Below, piece by piece: positions 3,065 through 60,640 of a DNA stretch of 64,000 nucleotides. How positions within the stretch are numbered: position 1 is the first letter of the stretch; each line of letters starts with the position of its first letter. The position numbers and the translations under genes are program-made. Origin of the DNA: Coptis chinensis (taxonomy: Eukaryota; Streptophyta; Magnoliopsida; Ranunculales; Ranunculaceae); assembly GCA_015680905.1 (NCBI GenBank), contig CM027379.1, positions 102,227,001-102,291,000 of the forward strand, written 5' to 3'. A model generated the notes under the pieces. The model ran no database searches, was not told the DNA's origin, and saw only the letters and a program-made list of their open reading frames with translations.

Positions 3065-6000
3065 CAAAACGTAAAGCTTAGGCAGGGTGGCGTCAAGTAC
3101 TGGAATAAGAATGAATTTGGCATGCTCAGTACCAATATCGCCAAAGAGACCGCAACTCTGGAAGCCCTGCAACAACAATTTGAACAAGATGAAAATGAGA
3201 TGCTGGCCTTAGAGATTGCAGAACAGGAGTTACAGGTGGAATCTTTGCTTGAGCAGGAGGTAGTGTATTAGAAACAAAGATCAGGAACTCAATGGGATAA
3301 AGAGGTTGATAGAAGTACAAAATACTACCACAACCTTGTTAACATAAGAAAATCAAGAGCTATGATCAAGGAACTGCAAGATTATCAAGGTAACATGCTA
3401 ACTGAGCAGGAGGAGATCAACAACTTCATTATAAGTCACTACACAGAGAAATTCAGAGCAGAGAATCTGGACTTAGATGAAGGTCTCCTACAGCTCATCC
3501 CACAGACTGTAACTGAGCAAGAGAATGAGGATATGTCAAAGATGCCGAACCATGAAGAAATTAGAAAAGCAGTTTTTATCCTATGCCCAGATAGTTCACC
3601 AGGACCTGATGGTTTCAATGGCCATTTCTATCAAGTATGCTGGAACGTTATTGGAAGAGTTGTAGTCAGAGCTGTGAGATATTTCTTCATTAAGAGTAGA
3701 CTACCCTCAAGTTTCAACTCAAACTTTATAGTTTTGATACCAAAAGAAAGGAATACAAACCAGTTGAATAAATTCCAACCTATTTGCCTCTCCAATTTCT
3801 CCTATAAAGTTATCACCAAGATCCTAGCTTCAAGACTGGCTCCAGTTGCCACACGGATAGTTTCAAAGGAACAATATGGTTTCATCTCGAACAGAAATTC
3901 TCATGAAGCAATTGGATTGGCGTCAGAAATGATTAATGAGTTGAAAGTTCAAAGACATGGAGGGAACATAGCTCTCAAATTGGATATTTCCCAGGCTTTT
4001 GACACTCTTGATTGGAAATTTCTTTGGGCAGTTTTATCAAGATTTGGATTCTCTCACACATGGATCTCTTGGGTACAAGGAGCAATTTCAAACAACAATG
4101 TCTCAGTGATGATCAACGGAGGGCCAAAAGGTTTCTTTACAGCTAGTAGGGGGCTCCGGCAGGGAGACCCACTTTCACCACTTCTCTTTGCTTTTGCTGA
4201 GGACTGCCTCAGTAAAGGAATGGAATGGCTTGTAACTCAAAGGAGAATCCAGAAGATGATCATAAATGCGAACTACACAAGCCCCTCTCACCTCATGTTT
4301 GCGGATGATATTTTTATATTTTGCAATGCGAACAAAAGATGTCTTAAACACTTACTTCTTCTTCTTTAGAGATATCAGAATTCAGTTGGCCAGTACATAA
4401 GCAAGGGAAAATGTAAGATATTCTTGAGCCCCATGACTCCCACAAGAAGAAATGCCACTGTCGAGTTACTTGGGATTCAAGAAGGAGCATTACCAGAAAA
4501 ATACCTCGGTGTACCACTCATTACTGGCAGAATTACTAAACAAGCTTTGGCTCCATTGGTAGATAAGGTTAGATTGAAAGCATCAAGCTGGGCCAGCAAA
4601 TTGTTATCTTTTCAAGGTAGAGTGGTGTTGGCAAAGCATGTGTTGAATAGCATACCTATTCATAATATGGTAATCTATAAATGGCCAACTGCTACAATCA
4701 AGGAGTGTGAAAAGATCATCAGAAATTTTATTTGGAGTGGCGACGACCCTTCAGAACAGAAGTTCATGACACTAAATTGGGAACAGACATGCAAGCCGAA
4801 AGAAGAAGGTGGATTAGGAGTAAGGAGACTCAAAGATATAAATCTCTCGATGCTACTAAAAATGTCTTGGTGTATAGTAAACGACAACAGTGACTGGGCA
4901 TGCTTTATGAGAGGGAAATATGGGGGAAGAAATGGTGAATGGACAAAGTACAAGAAATCATCCATTTGGTCTGGCATGAAGTGGGCACTCGAGGAAGCCA
5001 AGACGCATACTAGTTGGACCATTGGCACAGGCAAAGACATCAGCATCTGGAAAGACAATTGGATAGGTTTAGATGCTTTCTGTGATCTAATCCCTATGCA
5101 CAACGGTTTCTGGAGGCAATGCAACTCCAAGTTGAGTGAATGTATCAAAAATGATCACTAGGAATTCACCGCAAAGTTCACAAAAATTCTGAACAGGGTG
5201 GGAGTGAACTTGAACTTACTACAACAACCTGATTCTACACAAGAGGGTACCCGAATCTGGATGCCAGCCACAGATGGGCTATTTTCAGTCTCTACTGCAT
5301 ATGAAGCTACCCAGAAGAAAGAAACAAAAGTGAACTGGTATTCATTCTTATGGAAGTCCGTACTTCACCCTAGTGTTCAAGGAATTGGATGAAAAGTTCT
5401 TTAAGGAGTGATGCACACTGATAATAAGCTAAAGGCAAGGAAATTCAGCTTGGCGTCCATTTGTTGCATGTGCAAGCAATATGAAGAGACTCAAGAACAT
5501 ATACTCTTTGATTGTAGTTTTGCACGAAAACATTGGGAGTATCTCAAACAAATCTTCTATATTCAGGGAACAATTTCTTAAGGAATGATGTTCTCAATGC
5601 TTGCAAGAAGAGAAGCCCGCTAACAAGAGATATATGGTCTGCAGCAGCCATCACGTGCCTAGTACACATTTGGAAATCAAGAAACAAGAGACTATACGAC
5701 GAAGTGCAGGTCAAGGACAGCTATGTAAGAGCACAGATCAGAAAAGCAATTCTAGAAGCCTACATGCAATCAGCTGGAACTATGGACAACACATCTCAGG
5801 AACTTGCCACTTTACACACTCTTGGATTACAAAATAAACTCAGAAGAGCACCTAGGATTATGGAATGTTATTGGTCTCTTCCTCCGCAAGGTTTTCTAAA
5901 GGTGAATACAGATGGTTGTGCTAGGGGAAATCCAGGGGATGCTGGCTGGGGAGTGACTCTCATAATTCACACAGGCCAGGTGATAAGAACACTCATAGGA

Positions 6001-6790
6001 GGTCTCGGGATTACAACTAACTATGTGGCTGAAATAGTTGCAATTGTTGAAGGTGTTAAGAACAAGGCCCAAAATATCGATATCGATGAATATATCGGTG
6101 TACCCAAAAACCGATATATATCGGATATATCGGATATTTCGGATATATCTATTTTTTTGGTAACCAGTCCAAACTATTTAAAATATCGGAAATATCGGAT
6201 ATATCGGAAATATAATATCGGAAATATCGGATATATATCGGAAATATATTGGAAATATCGGATTTATATTTTAAAATGGTCAAAAAGTCAACCGATATAT
6301 ATCAATTATATCGGAAATATCGATTACATCGGCGATATAAAGTTTCATATCGGAAATTCCGATATATATCGGAAAAAAAAGAATTCTATATTCGGTGGAT
6401 ATATGTCGGAAATATCGATGTCGGTGTACCAAAATACCGATATATATCGGCGATATATCGGATATATCGGCGATATTTTGGTCCATGGTTAAGAAGGCTA
6501 TCGAGTTGGGGTGGGATCGAATTGTGGTAGAATCAGACTCGAAAGCTGCAATTCAAGCCTTCCAGACAAGCAAGGTACATTGGAGATGCAAAGCAGAATG
6601 GAATAGACTCAAGACCAAAGCAAACATCATTCTCACTAGTACATGGAGAGAAGTGAATTTTAGAGCAGATAAATGTGCCAAAAGAGGAGCAACTTTAGCG
6701 AATGGGCAGCAACAATGGTGGCCTCACAGACCAGATTTCCTACAGAGTATGGAGAACCAACACTTCACCTATTATAGATTTATTGCTTAA
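3065..6790 (+). pseudogene. LINE ORF2 (reverse transcriptase-RNase H), inactivated
   Basis: Encodes the C-terminal part of ORF2p, which copies LINE RNA into DNA. Visible RT motifs: SSPGPDGFNGHFY near 3595, KLDISQAFDTLDW near 3978, GLRQGDPLSPLLFAFAED near 4151 and the catalytic FADD near 4300. The RNase H part has DGCARGNPGDAGWG near 5910 and, beyond the MITE, VESDSKAAIQAF near 6530. Breaks: in-frame stops at 3268-3270, 4367-4369, 5159-5161 and near 5391 and 5403, a frame change near 5560-5580, and the MITE. 3362-5390 is otherwise a single frame, so decay is mainly point nonsense mutation. The archaeal-type RNase H at the C terminus is known from a subset of plant L1 lineages. Confidence 0.92.
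6063..6487. mobile_element. Non-autonomous hAT-type MITE inside the LINE
   Basis: 425 bp flanked by identical 8-bp target duplications GTTAAGAA at 6055-6062 and 6488-6495. Terminal inverted repeats are CAAGGCCCAAAATATCG (6063-6079) and, on the reverse strand, CATGGACCAAAATATCG (6487-6471), with two mismatches over 17 bp. The CA..GG start and 8-bp duplication are typical of hAT elements. The interior is packed with TATCGG/CCGATA hexamers on both strands, resembling subterminal transposase-binding repeats. It encodes no protein; open frames across it are a by-product of the ATATCGG repetition. Confidence 0.93.
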
Positions 6791-7861: not shown

Positions 7862-10190
7862 TCAGAGAAGATCAGCAACATTCATTGGAAGCTCTTCGAT
7901 TTCCGTATTATAGAACTTCTTAATATCAGACATCGTTCTCTCATCGTCATGCGTCACAAAGTTGATAGCAACACCTTTTCTTCCAAACCGACCACTACGC
8001 CCAATACGATGGAGGTAGTTTTCTGGTTGAGTAGGCAGATCGTAGTTAATAACCAGAGATACCTGCTGAACATCAATACCACGGGCAAGGAGGTCAGTAG
8101 TGATGAGCACACGCGATGACCCAGATCTGAATTCTCGCATGATAATGTCTCTAGTATTCTGGTCCATGTCTCCATGTGTGGCGGAAACAGTGTGGTCATT
8201 ACTACGCATCTGGTCAGTAAGCAAGTCAACCTTCCTTCGTGTATTGGCAAATATGACGCTCTGGGTAATGGCCAATGTCTCGTACAGATCACAGAGTGTA
8301 TCACATTTGAACCCTTCTTCTCCAACATTGATGTAAAACTGCTTGATACCCTCAAGGGTGAGCTCATCACGCTTCACCAGAATCCTCACAGGTTTGTTCA
8401 TGAACTTCTTCGTGATCTCAAGAGCTTCGGGAGGCATTGTTGCTGAGAAAACACCAACCTGAACTTTGGGAGGGAGAAGCTGGAAAATCTCGTAGATCTA
8501 ATAATATAGGAAAACAACCAATTAGCAACTAGTAGATCAAACATTTACTCCACTAAGAGATGACAAGTATTACCAGAATTTCAACTACTAGTCAAAGTAT
8601 GAATTCTTGGTGTTGGTGAAAAATAACTTATAGACTGACCCCCACTCCCGAATCAAGTAAAGCAGGCAACAGATTAACATAACCAGAATCAAAGTTATAA
8701 GGGTCATTGAGAAGGCCAACAATGACCGTCATTAAGCTAAATTCTAGTACAGTACGTATAAAGGTTGGGAACGAACCTGATCCTTGAAACCTCGTGAAAG
8801 CATTTCGTCTGCCTCATCCAATACAAACATTTTAATGTCATTTGCAGGAAGTGAACGTCTCCGCAGCATGTCAAACACACGACCAGGGGTCCCAACAACT
8901 ACATGCACGCCATCAGAAAGAATACGTTGATCCTCACGAACACTGGTTCCACCAACACAGGCATGAACCCTCACTTCCAGATAATCACCAAGTGCTCGCA
9001 TTACTCTCTCAATTTGTTGCGCAAGTTCACGAGTAGGTGCAAGGACCAAGGCTTGGCAGTAAACCGAACAATAATCAAGCTGCTGCAAAATACCTGAGCA
9101 GAAAGTTGCAGTCTTCCCAGTTCCAGACTGTGCTTGCTGAATCACATCAAGCCCCTTGCAGAAGGGCACAATTCCTCTCTGCTGAATTGCAGATGGCTTC
9201 TCAAATCCTTCAAACAAATAAAAGCAATTAATTTTCTTTATGGCTGTTGCCTGTTGGATTACCAGTCAGACTTAAAGAAATTGTAATTTCTTATCACAGT
9301 GAACTCCCACGGTTATTGTTTCATTTATTATTTGGATAGGTCAATAAACACCACAAGTCACCTGGTGGCCTCACAGGCTTTGATGGTTTCTAAAATAATC
9401 AGCACAAAGATATATGCATAATGATATATGATAGTTACTAAATGGTTGAAGCAATAGTATGATACTACTCCTGGGCTTTGGTAATTTCTGTATTAAATCA
9501 GCCCAATGAAATTAGCCGAGAAATTTGATATACCACCATCAAATCCATTAAATGAAACAAATAAAAATAAATTCGATGCTTCTGACTCCTATCAGAAAAA
9601 CTCTTGGACCCTTATTATCCATGCATGGGATTGACAGAATGACTGAAAGCTCGCAACTCTTGGATTTGATTAATCGTACCAATGAAATGCGCCTAGTAAT
9701 TTCTACATAACCATATCATTAGGATAAAAGGGAAGAAAGGATAAGATGCTTATGACACTAATCAGGTTCACTCTGGTGCCCCTAACATTTATGGTATGGA
9801 TGGTAGCAAGATCACAGAAACAATCAACTAAGCATGCAAAATCAACTTGTACAAGTCATTTCAATATTGAAAATACTAGAATAGTACAGACGAAAGATTG
9901 TTGCCTACCATATGCATAAATGCCCCTCAGAAGGTTCTCGTGGAGACCCATAGCATCAAAAGTTTCATGAACCACATCATATGATTCAATATCTTGTCCA
10001 TCTGGCGAGAGCCTGATCAATCCATTTAGCAGCTTATATTATTATGCATATATTAATGATATAACAAATATGGATTTCTTCTATCTTTTAACTAAAAAGT
10101 AGTATATGTGAAAAGTGCTTACAGTTCATTCATTCTGCTATCATAACGTTGCGCATCAAATTGTGATCCTTCTGGTTCCAATCCCGCCAT
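7862..10190 (-). CDS. eIF4A: Eukaryotic initiation factor 4A (DEAD-box RNA helicase)
   Basis: ATP-dependent RNA helicase of the eIF4F cap-binding complex, acting in the cytosol to unwind 5' UTR structure for 40S scanning. Coding exons on the minus strand: 10190-10123, 10012-9909, 9207-8777, 8497-7862, all GT-AG with compatible phases, giving 412 residues, the usual plant length. Motifs: Q motif [11 protein letters not shown] (59-69), Walker A GTGKT (86-90), PTRELA, TPGR, DEAD (188-191), SAT (219-221), [22 protein letters not shown] (from 364), ending VADLL. The start [12 protein letters not shown] matches the family N terminus and lies two bases after a leader-intron acceptor. The second exon starts after GATCAG rather than at nearby AGs because only that joins in frame to give LLSPDGQD. 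No damage is seen. The intact catalytic set argues for a functional gene. Confidence 0.97.
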
Positions 10191-41447: not shown

Positions 41448-41852
41448 GAACAAGTCCAATGGAGGGAAAAGTGTCATATAAGTGCCACACAGGCTTTTTA
41501 GCTTGCCCACTCAAATTTGGTTCTCCAAAATCAAAAAATCAATCCAATCGCGTTGTCTGTTTTGAAGGGCTAAATGATACGGACGACATAGTTATTATTT
41601 TTTGAATTTTTTTTGGACGGACAACACAGTTTTTGCCGTCCGTCGAAATTTAACACACGGACGACAGAAACTATACTGTCTGTCTCCCAAATTTATTATA
41701 GCAGCCTGCTAACGAAAGTCTTAATTTTGGCTGGATTTTTTACTCTTTCTAAATTTAAGACCCTTTTAGCAGCCCCATTAGAATGACATTTTTGTGGTTA
41801 TGGTGCTATATTTGCCTTTAACAACTCATCTAGCCGCCCATCGGACTTGCTC
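41448..41852. mobile_element. 405-bp Tourist-like MITE
   Basis: Termini GAACAAGTCCAATGGAGGG (left) and GAGCAAGTCCGATGGGCGG (right, reverse strand), flanked by TTA at 41445-41447 and 41853-41855. The 3-bp TTA duplication is the PIF/Harbinger signature. Inside, at about 41580-41690, the word CGGACGACA or its variants recurs on both strands and may mark a second, nested remnant. Confidence 0.82.
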
Positions 41853-42436
41853 TTATATAGACTGGAATGTTGAATAAATACAGGTTTTTTATTTCAAGAA
41901 TTTCAATTCAAAACAACTGTAGAGGATATTATTTTGTTATAATCACTATCAAACCCATTTCCCACGTCAAAACAACTCACGGACCCAGTTTTTCTATTTT
42001 AATAACCCTCAAAGACAAATTAAGTTAGCCCAGTCCATTATAATTTTATTAAATACCTATTTTACCCTTTTGTGTGTTAAGCTATAAATCGAAGATGTTT
42101 TCAAAATTAGAAATAAACAACGCGCTCTGGTTTCAATCGATTACTTCTTCTCCCTCAATTGAAAATTGAGTGGGTTCCTCAACTGAAGGTTTCAATCTAT
42201 AACTTCTTTCAATCTATAACTTCTTCTTCTTGCCGTCTAAAAATATTCTTATTCAAACTTTGTATCATGTTTTTATATCATGTTTTGTTTTTTAGATCAG
42301 ATCTGTGATTTTGGAGATATAATTTGTTTATAGCAATGATATAGTTTTAATATCATGTTTGTTATGAAAACGTTGTTTTATGTATTTTTCTTAATTGAAC
42401 TTTAGGTTTTGATTTTGATTTTTGCTATAAACAATT

Positions 42437-42670
42437 ATTGTTCATACGAATTTGTCGTATGAATAATAATTGTTCATACACAAATAACTATGAACAACCA
42501 ATATTCATAGTAGTTTTAAATACATTTGTCGATGAATTTTTTCTTAATTGAACTTTAGGTTTTGATTTTGTTTTTTGCTATGAACAATTATTGTTCATAC
42601 GTATTTGTTGTATGAACAATCATTATTCATACCCAAACAGCTATGAACAACCAATGTTCATAGTAGTTGT
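42437..42670. repeat. Palindrome array A (MULE 5' leader)
   Basis: Repeats of TATGAACA-N5-TGTTCATA-type near-palindromes, for example ATGAACAATTATTGTTCATA and ATGAACAATCATTATTCATA. They lie upstream of the transposase ATG and are separated by short unique pieces. Parts of a longer direct repeat (AGGTTTTGATTTTG) are shared by 42400 and 42550. Confidence 0.85.
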
Positions 42671-42713
42671 AAATTCATTTGACGATGCATTTTATTATGA
42701 TTTTGCAGTTTAT

Positions 42714-45155
42714 ATGGATCATAGTGTGATTGAAGTTTTTTGTTACAATGGTGGTAGTTTTTCCATTCGTATTGGGTTGGATTCTTTTATTGGTGGTGTT
42801 GCACAAGAGTTACATGAAAAATGGCCTGAGTTGGGATTAAAATGTTATAATATGTGTTTTAACCGTGACGAGAAAGATAACCTGATTGAATCTGATGGAG
42901 AGTTGCATTCTTTGGCTTGTTAGTGTTTTGCAAATAAGATTGCAATTGTTGAGATCAGAGTGATTGTTTGTGTCACTTCGTTGATTACCTCTAGTGGTTC
43001 TATTTCTGCAAGTTCTTCAAGTTCATCAAGTTCTTCAGTTAGTGGTGGTAGTGGTGGTGGTGGTATGGTTGTTGTTCGTAAACCTTTCAAGTCTGATTTT
43101 TGGGCAAGAAACTTTGATGGTGGTGTTGGGCAGGGATTTGCTTTAGGTGTGCCTGAGTTTCGCTGTAAATTGATAGAGTATTCGATTGTCAATGGTTACA
43201 AATATGAATTAATCAAGAATGACGAGTTTAGAGTGAATGCGGTTTGTGTGAATAAGAAGGAGGGAAACTGTGAATGGTGTATACACTCTTGCGATACATA
43301 TGGAAGTTTTGAAATTAAGAAGATTAATCTCACACACACTTGTGGTTTTGCATTTAAATACTACAACCATCATCCTCTCACTTCTTATCTTGTAATGACT
43401 CATATTTTGGATTTTGCTAGAGATAAACCATCTTTGTCATTGGGAGATATTACTTCTTTTTATAGTCGTGAGTATGGGCTTAAGATTTTTAAACATATGA
43501 GTTATGCGGGTAAGAAGTTAGCATTGACAGAGTTGTATGGTGATGTTGTTTTATCCTATAATGAATTTTTGTGGTATACGAAGGAGTTTAAGCAAAGAGA
43601 TCCTGGGAATTGTGTTGATCTTTAGGTGAATGAAGAGAGTGAGAAGTTTGAGAGGGTGTTTGTTGCTTTTGAATCGAGTATTAATGGTTTTAAATACTGT
43701 CAAGCAATGGTATATTTAGATGGAACCTTCTTGAGATCAGAGTATAAATGGTGCTTGTTGGCTGCTACTGCCAAAAATGGAGATCAAGGTGTTCCTTTAT
43801 TTTTACTTTCATGTTTTATTTTTGAACATGTATTATTGTTCATATCTGCTTAGAAGTATGAACAATGAGTGTTCATATCTATTTTGGGTATGAACACTCA
43901 TTGTTCATATCTATTTTGGGTATGAACACTTATTGTTCATGTCTGTTGTGGGTTTATCACTCATTGTTCATATCTATTTTGGGTATGAACACTCATTGTT
44001 CATATCTGTTTGGGGTATGAACACTCATTGTTCATATCTGTTTTGGATATGAACATGTATTGTTCATAACTTTTCAGTTATCTCATATTTGGTTATTTTT
44101 TGTGGTTTTGTAGGATTATTCCCTCTTGATGTTGATGTTGTTGATATTGAAAATGAATCAAATTGGTTTTGGTTTCTCAATATGTTTAAGAAGGTTTTTG
44201 GGTATGAGAGAAGATATATCTTTTTTAGTGATAGACATCATGATTTGCTTGTGAACATTCCTCTTGTATTTCCTGATTCATATCACAGTTTCTGCTTGTG
44301 GCACATGGAGAACAACCTTCGAACAGCTTTGTCAAAGACATGTGGTGTTTCGAAATATTTGGTGGGCTTATTTAAGAAATGTGCTTATGCTTCCACGCAT
44401 AAGGAGTTTCAGGAGCACATGGCTGAATTGTTGAATATAGGTGGAGATATAGTATTTAATTTTCTATCTATGGCACCTTATGATAATTGGGCTAATGCAT
44501 ACTTTTGTGGCGCTCGGTATGGTGAGATGTGCTCTTCTTTGGGAGAGTGTTTCAATAGTTGGATAGACAAAGAGCGTCATCTGCCCATCACAGCCATGTT
44601 AGATGAAATTCGCATGAAGATGATGAAAATGGCATTGGACCGGAGGATGGAGTGCAAGAATTGGAAAACTATTCTTTGTCCTAAAATGGAAGTGAAATTG
44701 GCTGAGAAGATTGAGGAGGCTGGCTTCGTGACCCGGTAAGGTCAGATGAGCACGTGTTTCAAGTTGTTACGGAGAAGCATGAGTATCGGGTTGACTTGCT
44801 TAGTAGATATTACACTTGTAATAATTGGGGCATAGACGGGTTTCCTTGCCGGCATGCAATTACGAATATTTATTGCAAAGGGGATTCAGTGTATTCATAC
44901 ATTGAGGTTGCATTTCTTGCCACTTCGTTTAGCAACACGTACTCTCATGGCATCACTGCAATTAGCCGCAATGAGATCTGTTCAGATGTTTCTGATGAAG
45001 TAGAAATTCTTCCACCAGATTTGAAGAGGGCTCCGGGTAGACCACGAGTTAAGAGGATTGAGAGCACGGGTGTTATGCGTTATACTGCCCACAAATGCAG
45101 AAAATGCCACAAAACCGACCGGCACGATCGGGACTTGCCGTGGGAAAACTTCTGA
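42714..45155 (+). pseudogene. MULE transposase (MuDR/FAR1-related), inactivated
   Basis: Exon 42714-43788, intron 43789-44113 (GT-AG; joins AKNGDQ to GLFPLDVD in phase), exon from 44114 to 45155. It would cut and paste the element. Order: N-terminal acidic/PB1-like segment, Ser/Gly linker, MuDR DNA-binding region (VIDFWARNF-like, from about 43100), DDE core with first Asp in YLDGTFLRSEYKW and second in FFSDRHH, SWIM zinc finger YTCNNWGIDGFPCRHA (about 44812), and C-terminal CRKCHK remnant of a zinc knuckle. Breaks: stops at 42921-42923 and 43623-43625 (both TAG where the frame otherwise continues) and a one-base frame change near 44735. The intron contains palindrome array B. Confidence 0.88.
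43823..44075. repeat. Palindrome array B (transposase intron)
   Basis: About seven units of 38-41 bp: core TATGAACACTCATTGTTCAT followed by spacer ATCTATTTTGGG or ATCTGTTTTGG. It fills most of the 325-bp transposase intron and stops before the acceptor. Confidence 0.93.
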
Positions 45156-45414
45156 CACTCCTGATGTGGAATCTAAAGCAATGTTAAGGGATGATTTCTC
45201 TAGTGTAATGGTTGAGCTGCCTAGTGGTAGTGGTGATATGGTATTAAGGTCTTGGCAATTTTTTGATGTGGGAAACACTAGTGATGCTGTTTGATATTTT
45301 TGTATTAAATATTTTTTGATTGAATGATAGTTATTAATACAGGTTTGGAATTCATTTTTAAAGTCTCTTATGATTTCATTCATTTATTTAATTTTGATTG
45401 CATGACACTTATTT

Positions 45415-45790
45415 AGGGTATGAACAACCAATGTTCATACCTATTGGTGGGTATGAACAATCAATATTCATACATGAATAGGTATGAACAATCAATGTTG
45501 ATATATCAATTCATTCATGGATATAATAATTGGTGGGTATGAACAATCAATGTTCATAGCTATTGGTGGATATTAACAAGAATGTTCATACATGGATAGC
45601 TATTGGTGGATAGCTAATAGTGGGTATGAACAATTAATGTTCATAGCTATTTGTGGGTATGAACAATGAATGTTCATACATGGATACCTATTGGTGGGTA
45701 TGAACAACCAATGTTCATAGCTAATGGTGGATATGAACACTCAATGTTCATAGCTATTGGTGGATATGAACAATGAATGTTCATACATGG
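45415..45790. repeat. Palindrome array C, left part (between MULE genes)
   Basis: About ten units with core TATGAACAATCAATGTTCATA and spacers such as GCTATTGGTGGG and CATGGATACCTATTGGTGGG. Interrupted at 45794 by the solo LTR and resumed at 46907. Confidence 0.92.
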
Positions 45791-45836
45791 ATACTGTTCC
45801 GGCCCCCACAAATGTGGCCCAATATAAGCCCAATTC

Positions 45837-46030
45837 AATACAAGCCCATGCTCAGAGCCCAACTATAAACAAGCCCATGCTCAGAGCTTAACTATAAACA
45901 AGCCCACGCTCAGAGCCCATGCTCAGAGCTTAACTATAAACAAGCCCACACTCAGAGCCCAACTATAAACAAGCCCATGCTCAGAGCCCATGCTCAGAGC
46001 TTATCTATGAAAAAGCCTATGCTCAAAGCC
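45837..46030. repeat. About 30-bp minisatellite in the solo LTR
   Basis: Repeats of AAGCCCATGCTCAGAGC plus CCAACTATAAAC or TTAACTATAAAC, about six copies with partial units. Confidence 0.85.
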
Positions 46031-46035
46031 TACAT

Positions 46036-46670
46036 TCCACGAGCTGACAGTTCTCCCGCCAGTTCTCCAACTTCATCCCACGAGTTGACAGATGTCCCGG
46101 CAGTTCTCCAACTTCAATCCACGAGCTGACAGATGTCCCGGCCATTCTCAACTTCATCCCACGGTGACGGATGTCCCGCCAGCCTCTCAACTTCATCCCA
46201 CGAACTGATCGTTCTCCCACCAGTTCTCCAACTTCATCCCACGAGCTGACAGTTCTCCCGCCAGTTCTCCAACTTTATCCTACGAGCTAACAGATGTCCC
46301 GCCCACGAGCTGACAGTTCTCCCGCCAGTTCTCCAACTTCATCCCACGAACTGACCGTTCTCCCGCCAGTTCTCCAACTTCATCCCACGAGCTGACAGTT
46401 CTCCCGCCAGTTCTCCAACTTCATCCTACGAGCTGACAGATGTCCCGCCCACGAGCTGACAGTTCTCCCGCCAGTTCTCCAACTTCATTCCACGATCTGA
46501 CAGATGTCCCGCCAGTTCTCCAACTTCATCCCACGAGCTGACAGTTGTCCCGCCAGCTCTCCAACTTCATCCCACGAGCTGACAGTTGTCCCGCCAGCTC
46601 TCCAACTTCATCCCATGATTGGACAGTTCTCCCGCCAGTTCTCCAACTTCATCCCACGATTGGAATATTG
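46036..46670. repeat. About 41-bp minisatellite in the solo LTR
   Basis: Roughly 14 copies of a unit reading ACGAGCTGACAGTTCTCCCG then CCAGTTCTCCAACTTCATCC. Variants replace AGTTCTCCCG by AGATGTCCCG. Open frames through it are artefacts of the repeat length. Confidence 0.92.
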
Positions 46671-46906
46671 GAGAACGAGGAAGTAACTATCACCAATGCT
46701 ACCTATAAAATCCAACCTTCGTCATTTTTCCAGAACTACGCAATCGAGACTTGATCCCAAGCAATATCTTTGGGTACGTAGGCAACTTCAAAACCGAAGT
46801 CCAGTCTCATCTTTTCCCAACCACCATCTCCTTCACCATTTCCAAAAAAAACATTACTTCCGACCTTCAACTGGTGTGTTTTGGCAAATCTTGCTGAAAC
46901 AGATAC

Positions 46907-47090
46907 CTATTGGGAGGATAGCTAATAGTGGGTATGAACAATCAATGTTCATAGCTATTGGTGGGTATGAACAATGATTGTTCATACATAGATACCTATT
47001 GGTGGATATGAACAACCAATGCTCATAGCTATTAGTGGGTATGAACAACCAATGTTCATATATCTGTGTATGAACATTGATTGGTTTAAT
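46907..47090. repeat. Palindrome array C, right part
   Basis: Continuation of the array at 45415-45790 after the solo LTR: four to five units with cores TATGAACAATCAATGTTCATA and TATGAACAACCAATGTTCATA. It ends about 50 bp before the first ULP exon. Confidence 0.92.
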
Positions 47091-47143
47091 GTTTTGATTT
47101 ATTGGTGTGTAAACTAATATGGCTTTCGTCACGTGCGTTGCAG

Positions 47144-49564
47144 TTTTGGTTTTGTGAGCACTCTGTAATCATCAAGAAGGTAGAGAACCATGAAACCAAA
47201 TTCCCGAGGTGTGTAAGGTGGAATTTGAAGACCTTGCTTGATGCTTTCCGAAAGACACCAATAACAGAAATAGCTGCAAGTCAGATTATTGTTGATGTTG
47301 AAGCAGCAACGGAGGCTAAAAAGACTTTACTTCATGACATGTATAGTGATTTAGTCACAAACAATGAAGTAACAGTCCAGGCTACAACAGAAAATATTGA
47401 TGCATTGAAACTGGAGAACAAAGAACTGAAGGAGAGGGTCATTGAGCTTGAAAAGCAAATTATGTCTTCCAGAGATGAAATTGAAAAGTTAAAGGAGCAG
47501 CAAGAGAGGGATATGTTTGATGAGGTTGAATTGCAACCTAATGAAGTAACGGATGAAGTCCACCCACCTAAAGAAGTGCAGCAGGGGCATCCTGATGAAG
47601 TCACGGATGCAGTCCACCATGCTGAAGTGCATCAGGTGCATTCTGATGAAGTCACAACTGAAGTAATGGATGAAGTCCACCCACCTATAGAATTGCAGCA
47701 GGTGCATCCTAATGAAGTCACGGATGCAATGGCTAAAGTGCAGCAGGGGCACTCTGACAAAGTCACAACTGAAGTAATTGATGAAGTCCCCCCATCTAAA
47801 GAATTGCAACAGGTGCATCCTGATGAAGTCACGGACGCAGTGGCTGAAGAGCAGCAGGGGCATTTTGACGAAGTCACAATTGAAGTTGCGGATGAAGTTC
47901 AACAGAGTAAGAATGTCGCAAAACCCTTTGATGGTCCATCATTTGATCTACGCCTAACCTTGTCACCTTCAGATAAAGATAAGGAGAAGGATGTCGAGGG
48001 AGCAAAGAAACCTTGCTCACTTGTAAAGCGAATGAAGCAAAATAAAGAAAGGAAAAGTAAAGTGATTGGCGAGGATTTCACTGGAGATGGGCGAAAAAAG
48101 AAGAAGAAAGGTGACACTGGCAAGCAAACTCTTGTTGATGACAGTATCGTCCGTTCTCTGTTTGACCTGAAGACGTGTCGATACTATGTGGGTTTGGAAG
48201 AAACCCATCGAGAAGTCATTGACACGTTCTTCAAAATTGTGGATAGTGGGTAAGTTTAAGATACCAAAAAATAATATTTTGAGTAAATATGTTGTTTGAC
48301 TAATGGTTATTTCTTATGGTTTTTGAAGAGCTATTGCTTAGTCAAATGGAACATTACAAATTCAAGGTGTTCTAGTTGAAGATATTATCTTTGATAGAGA
48401 AATTGATCACCAGGTAAATTTTATTCATACCACAATTGGACTATGAACACTCATTGTTTATACCCACAATTGGACTATGAACAATCATTGTTCATAGTTT
48501 TTACCTATGAACAATCATTGTTCATACTCCAGCAATGGGTACGAACAATCATTGTTCATACTCGAGCAACTTGCCAAAAATCTGGTAGCTATGAACACTC
48601 ATTGTTCATACCACAATTGGACTATGAACATTATTTGTTCATACTCCAGCAATGGGCACGAACATTCATTGTTCATAGTCATAAGCTATTTATGTGATGC
48701 CAATTTAAAAAAAAACTTATCCATTCAACAGGTCATTGACTGGTGGACGATAGAACTTCAACAGAGAAAGACTGGAAAAGTAGAGACTTGTCTAGTATTT
48801 GCAAACTCTAAGGTTAATTTTTTATTAAAAAAAAATATTGTGTCATCTATTATTATTGTCACATTCTTATTATTTCACACAATTGTTGACACAGAGATTG
48901 TTGGAAGAAGTAGGATTGGAAACCATATTGAAGAACATCGACTTCAATATGAAATTCATTGCTATTCCAATTCATTCGGACAATCATTGGACTCTTCTTG
49001 TCTTGGAGTTGGTGAAGGGACAGCAAGCAAGATGGTATTACTTCAACTCCCTAAGCCAGACAAAAAAGGGGTTGGAAGTTGCAAAAGAATTTGTGAGTTC
49101 GACAATAAACACTTAAATTATATAAAATTTTATATGTTGAAATATAAAGAAATAACTTATTGTAATTTTGCAGAAGAAGGTACTAGTTGAGTCAATAAAC
49201 AATCTTATAAAAAAGGGGGATTTGAAAATCCAGCCTGTCAATAATAAAGAAATAATTCTTTCAGCAAAATGTCCGCAGCAAAATAATAGGTAATTATTTA
49301 TTTATATGTTACATGTGTGGACTATGATTGTTCATACCTCAAATAGCTATGAATACAATCATTCGTTATATTTTAGCACTGATTGTGTATTATCTAAATT
49401 GCAGCGTTGATTGTGGGCTCCATGTCTGTAAAATGATGGAAATTTTGTATGAACAAGGTCATATGGATTTCTTTCAATTTATAAATGAAGAGGAAATACA
49501 AAAGTTGCGCCCTCACATTGCATGCAGAATGCTTTTAGACTTGCCGAGAAGTTGGAGTAAATAA
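47144..49564 (+). pseudogene. ULP1-like cysteine protease gene of the MULE (nonsense-bearing)
   Basis: C48-family SUMO-protease-like domain carried by Kaonashi MULEs; its role in the element is unknown. Exons: 47144-48249, 48329-48413, 48732-48812, 48895-49092, 49174-49289, 49405-49564, all GT-AG and in phase, about 580 codons. The first exon has a coiled coil (about 47400-47510) and a tandem peptide repeat of about 39 residues rich in DEV, HPDEVTDAV and QQ (47530-47890), then a basic KKKKK stretch. The protease domain shows catalytic His in DNHWTLLVLEL, YYFNSL where the family usually has Asp (here Asn), and catalytic Cys in SVDCGLHVCKM. One in-frame TAG lies at 48339-48341. Upstream exons are not seen before the acceptor at 47143. 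Confidence 0.82.
48424..48690. repeat. Palindrome array D (ULP intron 2)
   Basis: Six to seven units with core TATGAACAATCATTGTTCATA, separated by CCACAATTGGAC, CTCCAGCAATGGG or similar spacers. Confined to the intron between 48413 and 48732. A single related core lies in ULP intron 5 near 49322-49350. Confidence 0.92.
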
Positions 49565-49892
49565 AATCATGATTTTTAGGAAAATTATAGGAAGGGAATG
49601 TTTGCTGAATGAATGTGAGATTTTAGAAAAGGAATGTTTTACTGAATTAATGTGAGGAAGGCAAAAAACAATATATTTTATGGTGTGTTTTGTGCACAAT
49701 TATATTTTGTTTATGAACAGGGAGCGACTCTAGATATTTTGTGGTGTTTTTTGTGCACAATGATATTTTGTTTATGAAAGTTAAATATTGGTGTTCTCAA
49801 TGTGTTTTCTTGTTATTATTTATATTATGTTTATTTATAACTAATTTTCATATTATTTATATCCTTTTTCATAACTGATTATCATAATTGGG

Positions 49893-50545
49893 GCTATGAA
49901 CATTGATTGTTCATACCTTTAAACAATGAGTGTTCATAGCTTCAATAGGTATGAACAATCAATGTTCATGTCTGGTTTTGGGTATGAACAATCAATGTTC
50001 ATATCTGTTTTGGGTTCATGTTTTTTTGGGTATAAACACGGATTGTTCATACCCAAAGAAGGTATGAACAATCAATGTTCATATCTGTTTTGGGTGTGAA
50101 CATTTATTGTTCATATCTGTTTTGTTCATACATATTGTTCATAGTTAATGTTCATAATTTGGGGTATGAACAATCAATGTTCATAGCTATTGTTCATACA
50201 TTGATAGGTATGAACAATCATTGTTTATAACTGATGTTCAAAATTGGGGATATGAACATTTATTGTTCATACCTTTAAAGAATGAGTGTTCATAGCTTCA
50301 ATAGGTATGAACAATCAATGTTCATGTATGGTTTGGATATGAACAATCAATGTTTATATCTGTTTTTGGTTCATATTTTTATGGGTATGAACACAGATTG
50401 TTCATACCAAAAGAAGGTATGAACAATCAATGTTCTAATCTGTTTTGAGTGTGAAGATAGCTATTGTTCATATATAGATATGTATGAACAATGATTGTTA
50501 ATTGTTCATACTTATTGTGGGTATGAACAATCAATGTTCATAATC
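49893..50545. repeat. Palindrome array F (3' part of MULE)
   Basis: The longest array, about fifteen units with core TATGAACAATCAATGTTCATA and spacers TCTGTTTTGGG, CCTTTAAA or CTTCAATAGG. It contains a higher-order duplication: the block from about 49895 to 50100 recurs at about 50255-50450. Confidence 0.93.
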
Positions 50546-50755
50546 GGGTTGTTTTAGTTGGGTCGGGCCATTTATTTTTTTTCTTCAGGGGCATACTTGA
50601 CCTTTCATCTATTCGAGCCGTTTTTATTTCGCGTCAAGGATAAACTTGAACTTTCATCCACCCGATCCTTATGAGTGATTACAAAAATAACGTGTCTTCT
50701 AGAGTTTCTCTTTTGGCCGAATTGTCCTCTAAAGTCGCTCCCTGTTTTTTATTTT

Positions 50756-58703: not shown

Positions 58704-59990
58704 ATCACGGTGTCCCTTCTCAACATTTTTTCTGTGCCAAACTGAAATAAGGTACAAATTGAAGCCCGATTCTGAGCCAAATTACTATAAGAGTTATTAC
58801 CTATAGCTAACTGAGAGTTCACCGATTTCATGATCTTAGGACGAAGGGGATTGAGGCGTGAGACCTGGTTGTATTGAACATTGATCAATTGAAGTTTGTT
58901 TTTGTATAGAGTGTAAAGACTTCCCCGTCTTGGAGGAAAGTTTAATTCCCTGCTTTCCCATTTACTTGGTAATTCATACTTGAAGTGATCAAAATTTTCT
59001 TAAAATTTTGCTCGATGTGTTGAGTTCATTGATTTCTGTCTATGTTTGATCTGCCTATAGTGTGAATCTGCAGCAGTTTTTTCATCTCAGTTTTCCATGG
59101 GTCAATTCAAAATATGTCCGAAAATGTTACAGGAGCTATATGTTAGACATGTCCGGACATTCAAGATATCAAGATGTCAATGGCCCAGAAAAGGTTGCCC
59201 AGTTTTTTACTCACTTTTTGTTAACCCATGAATTTGTTTGCAATCAACCTGCTAAGGAGAAAATTAGAGTTACTAGACGCATTGGTAAGTCATTATAGAA
59301 CCGAATGAGACAGATTCTGATGCATGAAGAAAGACCAAGATACGATATATTTAGATAAAAATAAGGGTTAAGTAGTATTATCTCCTACTAGATGGGAAAT
59401 TAGGGTCTCTCCCAACACACAGTCAATTTGGTTTGACTTGACTGTTAACTTTTAAGTCAAATGGTTAAAAATGACACAATTGCCCCCACCTGGTGAACAT
59501 TTGTTTTTTGAAAATAATAAAAACATTTGTATAATTTTCAGTTACTTGACTTGAAATTTAACGGTTAATTTGTGTTTAGGAGGTAATACTAGTTAACCCA
59601 AAAAACAATACTAATAAGTTTTCTTGCATATAGCTACTTTCACATTAGAGATCCTATGTATTTTGAACGGATACTTAATGTCGTTTCTAATGTGATGTTA
59701 AGGGATGCGACAGAATTGGTTTTTCTTGCATGATAGCTCATAGTTGATGCTAGAAGCTATTAAGGTTCCTTTTACATTAATATATTTGACATTGGATGTA
59801 TAATATGTGTCTACATATGAGGCAGATAATGATGCTAATGATTTGAGTATTTTTGTCACTATGAATATTAAAGTACTGCCCCAGTTCACATAACTGATTT
59901 GATGATCCAAATTTGATCTTGGCATTGTAAATAGACTAATAAATCTAAGAACGAAGTGAAGAAAAAACTCAATTTTGTGCGTCTGTGCTA
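58704..59990. other. E2 3' UTR and intergenic DNA, nothing recognised
   Basis: The first 200-300 bp are presumably E2 3' UTR. An open frame at 59062-59298 has no motif. No gene is seen. Confidence 0.5.
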
Positions 59991-60640
59991 GATGTGTTTG
60001 CAATGTTTAGGTTGTGTGTGGATTGACTGTTAGACTTGAGAACTGATTGCAAACTTTTTAGTGTATTTTAACTTTTTTCTTTTTCCTTGAACCAATGATT
60101 TGAGCCAACAACAAAGCTAACTCGCCCCATTGTGACTAACTGAGCTGTGAAATCTCGTTATCTTCCTCTCAATCAGGGAGTCTAAAAGGCCCAGGTCTAC
60201 TGCAGAATGCTATACGAGGCCGGTGCCCTTTCATGGGTATCGTCCCCAAATTTTGAACAAACAGTTTAGGCGAAGCAAGATTCTAAGCTAGGGGTGCGAG
60301 ACCCCACCCTACGAAGATGTGTTTGCAATGTTTAGGTTGTGTGTGGATTGACTGTTAGACTTGAGAACTGATTGCAAACTTTTTAGTGTATTTTAACTTT
60401 TTTCTTTTTCCTTGAACCAATGATTTGAGCCAACAACAAAGCTAACTCGCCCCATTGTGACTAACTGAGCTGTGAAATCTCGTTATCTTCCTCTCAATCA
60501 GGGAGTCTAAAAGGCCCAGGTCTACTGCAGAATGCTATACGAGGCCGGTGCCCTTTCATGGGTATCGTCCCCAAATTTTGAACAAACAGTTTAGGCGAAG
60601 CAAGATTCTAAGCTAGGGGTGCGAGACCCCACCCTACGAA
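59991..60640. repeat. Perfect 325-bp tandem duplication
   Basis: Copy 1 is 59991-60315 and copy 2 is 60316-60640, both starting GATGTGTTTGCAATG and ending ACCCCACCCTACGAA. I compared them base by base and found no difference. The unit contains AGGTCTACTGCAGAATGC and GAGGCCGGTGCCC but no gene that I recognise. Confidence 0.95.

Follow-up and report, generated by a model that had tools for sequence, protein, structure and literature searches.

Arrays of a 21-base near-palindrome in the non-coding parts of a decayed MULE

A 21-base core, TATGAACA-N5-TGTTCATA, is repeated in arrays that occupy the non-coding parts of a decayed MULE carrying a Ulp1/C48 gene. In the window, i.e. the whole 64-kb stretch of DNA analysed here, a pattern search allowing at most two mismatches over the 16 fixed bases found 48 cores, all within 42426-50542 and none elsewhere; in 100 dinucleotide shuffles the mean count was 0.08 and the maximum 1. 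The initial annotation, which had described such arrays and seen no core outside the element in the window, is fully supported on this point.

The core and its arrays

Most cores are intact: 28 match the pattern exactly, 16 carry one mismatch and 4 carry two. When the search is relaxed to three mismatches the count rises to 50, still with none outside the element, and with four mismatches it reaches 57, plus 4 sites in other parts of the window. Five mismatches bring the element to 62, including an exonic site (47153), with 48 outside it, and this level has to be regarded as background. The element region also contains 13 orphan exact half-sites, one of which (49448) lies inside a ULP exon.

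The five central bases had been read as a free spacer, a view that we have to correct: the fourth base is A in 47 of the 48 cores and the second is T in 39. In 38 of the 48 cores these two inner bases are complementary, which indicates that the dyad includes the inner pair, and the end pair of N5 matches in just 10. No clear extension of the dyad into the flanks appears among the 48 cores.

Once the solo LTR described below is removed, the cores form five arrays of 6, 6, 13, 7 and 16 copies. Array 1 lies in the 5' leader (42426-42662; 6 cores) and takes the form of a 153-bp block present twice. Array 2 (43857-44068; 6 cores) largely fills the transposase intron, and array 3 (45419-47060; 13 cores) stands between the two genes. 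Array 4 (48442-48677; 7 cores) is found in ULP intron 2 (48414-48731), and array 5 (49895-50542; 16 cores) in the 3' region, where part of it is duplicated 356 bp apart. As for the single core previously placed in ULP intron 5, its exact half-site (49329) is genuine, but the full core (49316-49336) is degenerate, with three mismatches.

Array 3 had been presented as two intergenic arrays (45415-45790 and 46907-47090). It is better described as one, split by a solo LTR of 1107 bp (45795-46901, limits set by eye) that has TG...CA termini and GATAC on both sides. As the LTR inserted within the array, the array is the older of the two. The interior of the LTR shows a tandem repeat of about 41 bp, richer in G+C, in about 15 copies.

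The period of 38-41 bp first proposed is not typical of the arrays: 26 of the 43 within-array spacings measure 30-34 bp and the usual period is 31-34 bp, so that neighbouring cores are most often about three helical turns apart. The 17 spacings that fall outside the 30-34 bp class lack helical phase at 10.5 bp (R = 0.09, P = 0.88). Scanned for a period, the full set of 43 gives its peak near 8 rather than 10.5, and helical phasing beyond that class was rejected.

None of the 48 cores overlaps an exon of our gene model, in agreement with the initial annotation. In the segment that starts at the first core and ends at 50545, the numbers of cores are 6, 6, 13, 7 and 16 for non-coding stretches of 288, 325, 1849 (LTR included), 318 and 984 bp respectively. 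All five non-coding stretches of at least 288 bp are thus arrayed, an intron of 114 bp holds the degenerate core, and three introns of 80-81 bp hold none. The non-coding share of the segment, LTR excluded, is about 43 percent, and the chance that five independent arrays would all be non-coding is about 0.015, for a segment cut at its outermost cores, which favours this result. A placement beyond chance is therefore suggestive but not strong; besides, selection against broken exons would equally yield it.

The letters of the core, searched in the literature as half-site words together with “transposable element”, gave no relevant title among the matches listed. A pattern scan of the non-plant IMG/VR collection returned 8 stretches with one site each, listed on both strands, and no arrays, and the exact tandem pattern of the core had 0 matches in prokaryote genomes. 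One piece of the transposase gave 2 pattern matches in the protein scan of IMG/VR, also non-plant, neither confirmed as a relative, and no match against plasmids. These three collections hold no plant genomes, so that their negatives are uninformative on the host.

The MULE, its genes and its neighbourhood

The transposase gene lies on the + strand. Its exon 1 (42714-43788), with the DBD_Tnp_Mut domain, is interrupted by two in-frame stops; the GT...AG intron (43789-44113) that holds array 2 follows, then exon 2 (44114-45294, end estimated), with the MULE domain, in which the frame is lost near 44739. A domain search of the open pieces scored DBD_Tnp_Mut at 28.2 bits (cut-off 25) and MULE at 32.8 bits (cut-off 27.6); SWIM, at 19.4 bits, falls just under its Pfam cut-off of 19.6.

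The ULP gene (47144-49561, + strand; exon limits approximate and partly set by eye), which places a Ulp1/C48 gene inside the MULE as in KIU-type elements, encodes Peptidase_C48 at its C end (72.5 bits, cut-off 20.7), with a match to SENP2 at E 2.7e-5. This alignment preserves the His and Cys positions and has Asn at the Asp position; we take these three positions to be those of the catalytic residues. Exon 1 encodes a coiled-coil-like stretch, peptide repeats of about 37 residues and a Lys-rich stretch; about three copies of the 37-residue repeat, with a period of 111 bp, are seen at 47542-47898. Exon 2 contains an in-frame TAG under the splice chosen. An acceptor-like cgttgcag stands right before exon 1, which means that array 3 might lie in a ULP intron rather than between genes, and the N-terminal part of the gene may be missing. 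Neither DUF1985 nor DUF287 was found at E up to 1 in the hand-joined ULP protein, whose gene start is possibly lost or unseen.

The ends of the element were not located. No convincing terminal inverted repeats were found: the best flank-to-flank match outside the arrays has an E of 0.12, and none of the 25 inverted pairs listed, of 686, is convincing as terminal repeats. The target-site duplication of MULEs is described as 8-11 bp at the ends (PMC6446971); our search for it gave many chance repeats of 9-11 bp and no convincing duplication flanking the MULE.

Other features of the window were noted in passing. Just left of the MULE, at about 41449-41854, a MITE-like stretch with inverted ends AACAAGTCCAATGG... 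/ ...CCATCGGACTTGCTCTT is visible by eye. At 49674-49778 a stretch of about 44 bp occurs twice around CAGGGAGCGACTCTAGA, and a near reverse complement of CAGGGAGCGACTCTAGA lies at about 50728-50744 (also by eye); these repeats may be the trace of an element end or of a small insertion. Farther away, 3272-6790 shows by eye reverse-transcriptase-like and RNase H-like frames, probably of a LINE, with an ATATCGG-type tandem repeat at about 6116-6476, and the minus strand of 7862-9265 has frames resembling, by eye, an eIF4A-type DEAD-box helicase gene. A 325-bp unit is present twice in tandem at 59990-60640 with 100% identity, either a very recent duplication or an assembly artefact.

Origin and possible function of the arrays

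The clearest sign that the core behaves apart from its surroundings comes from a block of the 5' leader, where three adjacent cores 31-32 bp apart are alike at 15-16 of 16 arm bases and their flanks at 6, 4 and 0 of 20. Near-identical cores between unrelated flanks are not explained by plain tandem duplication followed by neutral decay. In ULP intron 2 the picture is mixed, the flanks of 21 unit pairs being alike at 2 to 14 of 20. Mean flank identity is 0.34 in the 5' leader and 0.35 in ULP intron 2, versus 0.28 for shuffled flanks; the arm identity set beside these flanks, 0.93, is partly built in since the sites were chosen by their arms. Elsewhere the flanks are more alike, 0.71 in the transposase intron and 0.60 in array 3, as expected from local duplication. 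Moreover, the flanks of the transposase intron resemble those of the 3' region (0.51) more than the latter resemble one another (0.42), which suggests that some spread occurred as whole units. The earlier statement that the core stays constant while spacers differ between arrays thus needs a correction, as some flank similarity extends from one array to another.

That the core is constrained, or was repeatedly seeded, had also been suggested. The 5' leader block agrees with this and ULP intron 2 does so in part; in two aligned segmental duplications, 10 of 152 arm positions and 21 of 178 spacer positions have changed (gap columns omitted), so that the arms are not significantly slower than the spacers (Fisher P = 0.13). 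Our reading is that the cores of at least one array were seeded, or preserved, independently of their flanks, and that local duplication multiplied them afterwards. Overall, constraint on the core is suggested rather than proven.

What the arrays do is a matter of interpretation, and we consider it somewhat probable that a DNA-binding protein from this MULE family's own genes, most likely an anti-silencing factor of VANC type, uses them as target platforms. Such a protein, for which the ULP-type product would be the first candidate, would recognise TATGAACA-N(T)N(A)N-TGTTCATA at its many occurrences in the leader, the introns, the intergenic spacer and the 3' region, and would probably be dimeric in view of the core's two-fold symmetry. 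Once bound, it would strip methylation or silencing from its own family and spare the host. Local tandem duplication and segmental duplication would enlarge the arrays, which would be retained wherever they leave coding sequence uninterrupted. Among the roles initially listed, distributed protein-binding sites appear the best fit; the choice of the transposase as the binder is less favoured, as precedent points to a VANC-type element protein.

That the cores are nevertheless sites for the MULE transposase, whether as substitutes for terminal inverted repeats that are missing or as a means of titrating it, seems to us unlikely. A palindrome would suit a dimeric binder, the transposase still has its DBD_Tnp_Mut match, and no convincing terminal inverted repeats were found. 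Sites in introns and in the central spacer would, on the other hand, presumably invite internal synapsis, and in the literature consulted MULE arrays located in introns are bound by VANC rather than by the transposase (PMC5735166). It is similarly improbable that the core is a functionless palindrome, selfish or prone to slippage, tolerated only where it breaks no gene. The local and segmental duplications are evident, the non-significant arm/spacer comparison above suits this explanation, and flanks are more alike within arrays (0.483) than under label shuffles (mean 0.396, largest 0.430). It accounts less well for near-identical cores set at regular spacing between unrelated flanks—although a mobile palindrome could also give them—and for the 0 copies elsewhere in the 64 kb.

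We are still more doubtful of a role as RNA hairpins, with small RNAs or double-stranded RNA as products, even if folding at first appears to favour this. Three stretches fold far better than their shuffles (z -12.2, -11.1 and -15.3), and with the cores held constant, native spacers outperform shuffled ones in five stretches (z from -2.6 down to -6.1), four of them beating every shuffle and the 5' leader beating 59 of 60. A stricter control, run on four stretches, gave z values between -1.3 and -3.7 for the + strand and between -1.7 and -4.0 for the - strand. But palindromic arrays fold by construction, the stem of a single core is 8 bp, and the excess is alike on both strands, which is expected from the symmetry of the DNA rather than from a transcript-specific hairpin. 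Small RNAs from the arrays are possible.

Coming back to the element-encoded binder, a bolder version of it, rather unlikely in our opinion, would set this MULE outside the described VANC types: a dimeric Ulp1-type protein devoid of DUF1985 would recognise the dyad-symmetric 21-bp site, tethering a SUMO-protease-like factor to introns and spacers and so undoing silencing, by a separate origin of sequence-specific anti-silencing. If the proposal of target platforms is right, a palindromic-site version would join the few cases of a transposon marking its own non-coding DNA against silencing. The core, with 21 bp and 48 natural copies, would then be a compact and easily made probe to find the element protein that reads it, and finding this reader would open a way to the role of the Ulp1 domain in plant MULEs.

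Comparison with known systems

The subterminal repeats of En/Spm, an element of the CACTA superfamily, resemble the present arrays in offering many short sites to an element protein, TnpA, able to reverse methylation; unlike them, they are limited to the element ends. For VANC systems, motif sequence, density and helical periodicity are reportedly the determinants, according to the abstract of Sasaki 2022.

The nearest likeness is with VANC21 of the Arabidopsis MULE VANDAL21 (Hiun). This protein binds YAGTATTAY, a motif dense in the non-coding DNA of its own family, both in introns and in intergenic and terminal regions; binding removes silencing and the density of the motif matters (Hosaka 2017; PMC5735166). 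RdDM is described as targeting the same kind of non-coding regions as VANC21 (PMC10398659). Here too a short motif forms dense arrays that occupy introns, spacers and terminal parts and spare the exons. VANDAL21 arrays form and change as tandem repeats, as ours appear to do, and the variable regions of VANCs often contain tandem peptide motifs (PMC5735166), a feature that our candidate protein shares through ULP exon 1. VANDALs are described as having terminal inverted repeats absent or short and degenerate (PMC6446971); in this element, whose ends were not located, no convincing ones were found. The differences are that the VANC21 motif is 9 bases long and in one orientation whereas ours is a 21-base palindrome, that the DUF1985/DUF287 of VANC21 were not found in the ULP protein, and that binding, shown for VANC21 in Arabidopsis, is a prediction here.

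VANC6 and VANDAL6 likewise show motif arrays in non-coding regions, each family having its own motif; those of VANC6 are AGTTGTCC / AGTTGTAC. The published VANC21 and VANC6 motifs have 8-9 bases and, unlike the present core, are not palindromic (PMC5735166). The Ulp1 C48 gene beside the transposase recalls the Ulp1-bearing VANC genes (Kaonashi/KIU) of VANDALs and other non-TIR MULEs: a review describes some VANC genes of non-TIR MULEs as carrying Ulp1, strongly conserved in eudicots, and reports motif-directed hypomethylation among KIU-carrying VANDALs (PMC13317346).

The palindromic motif, and the fact that no DUF1985 or DUF287 was found in the ULP protein as assembled, set the system apart from VANC in the strict sense. 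The likeness thus concerns placement, density and partner genes but neither domains nor palindromy, and we accordingly claim, by analogy, a probable mode of action resembling that of a VANC target array rather than identity with one.
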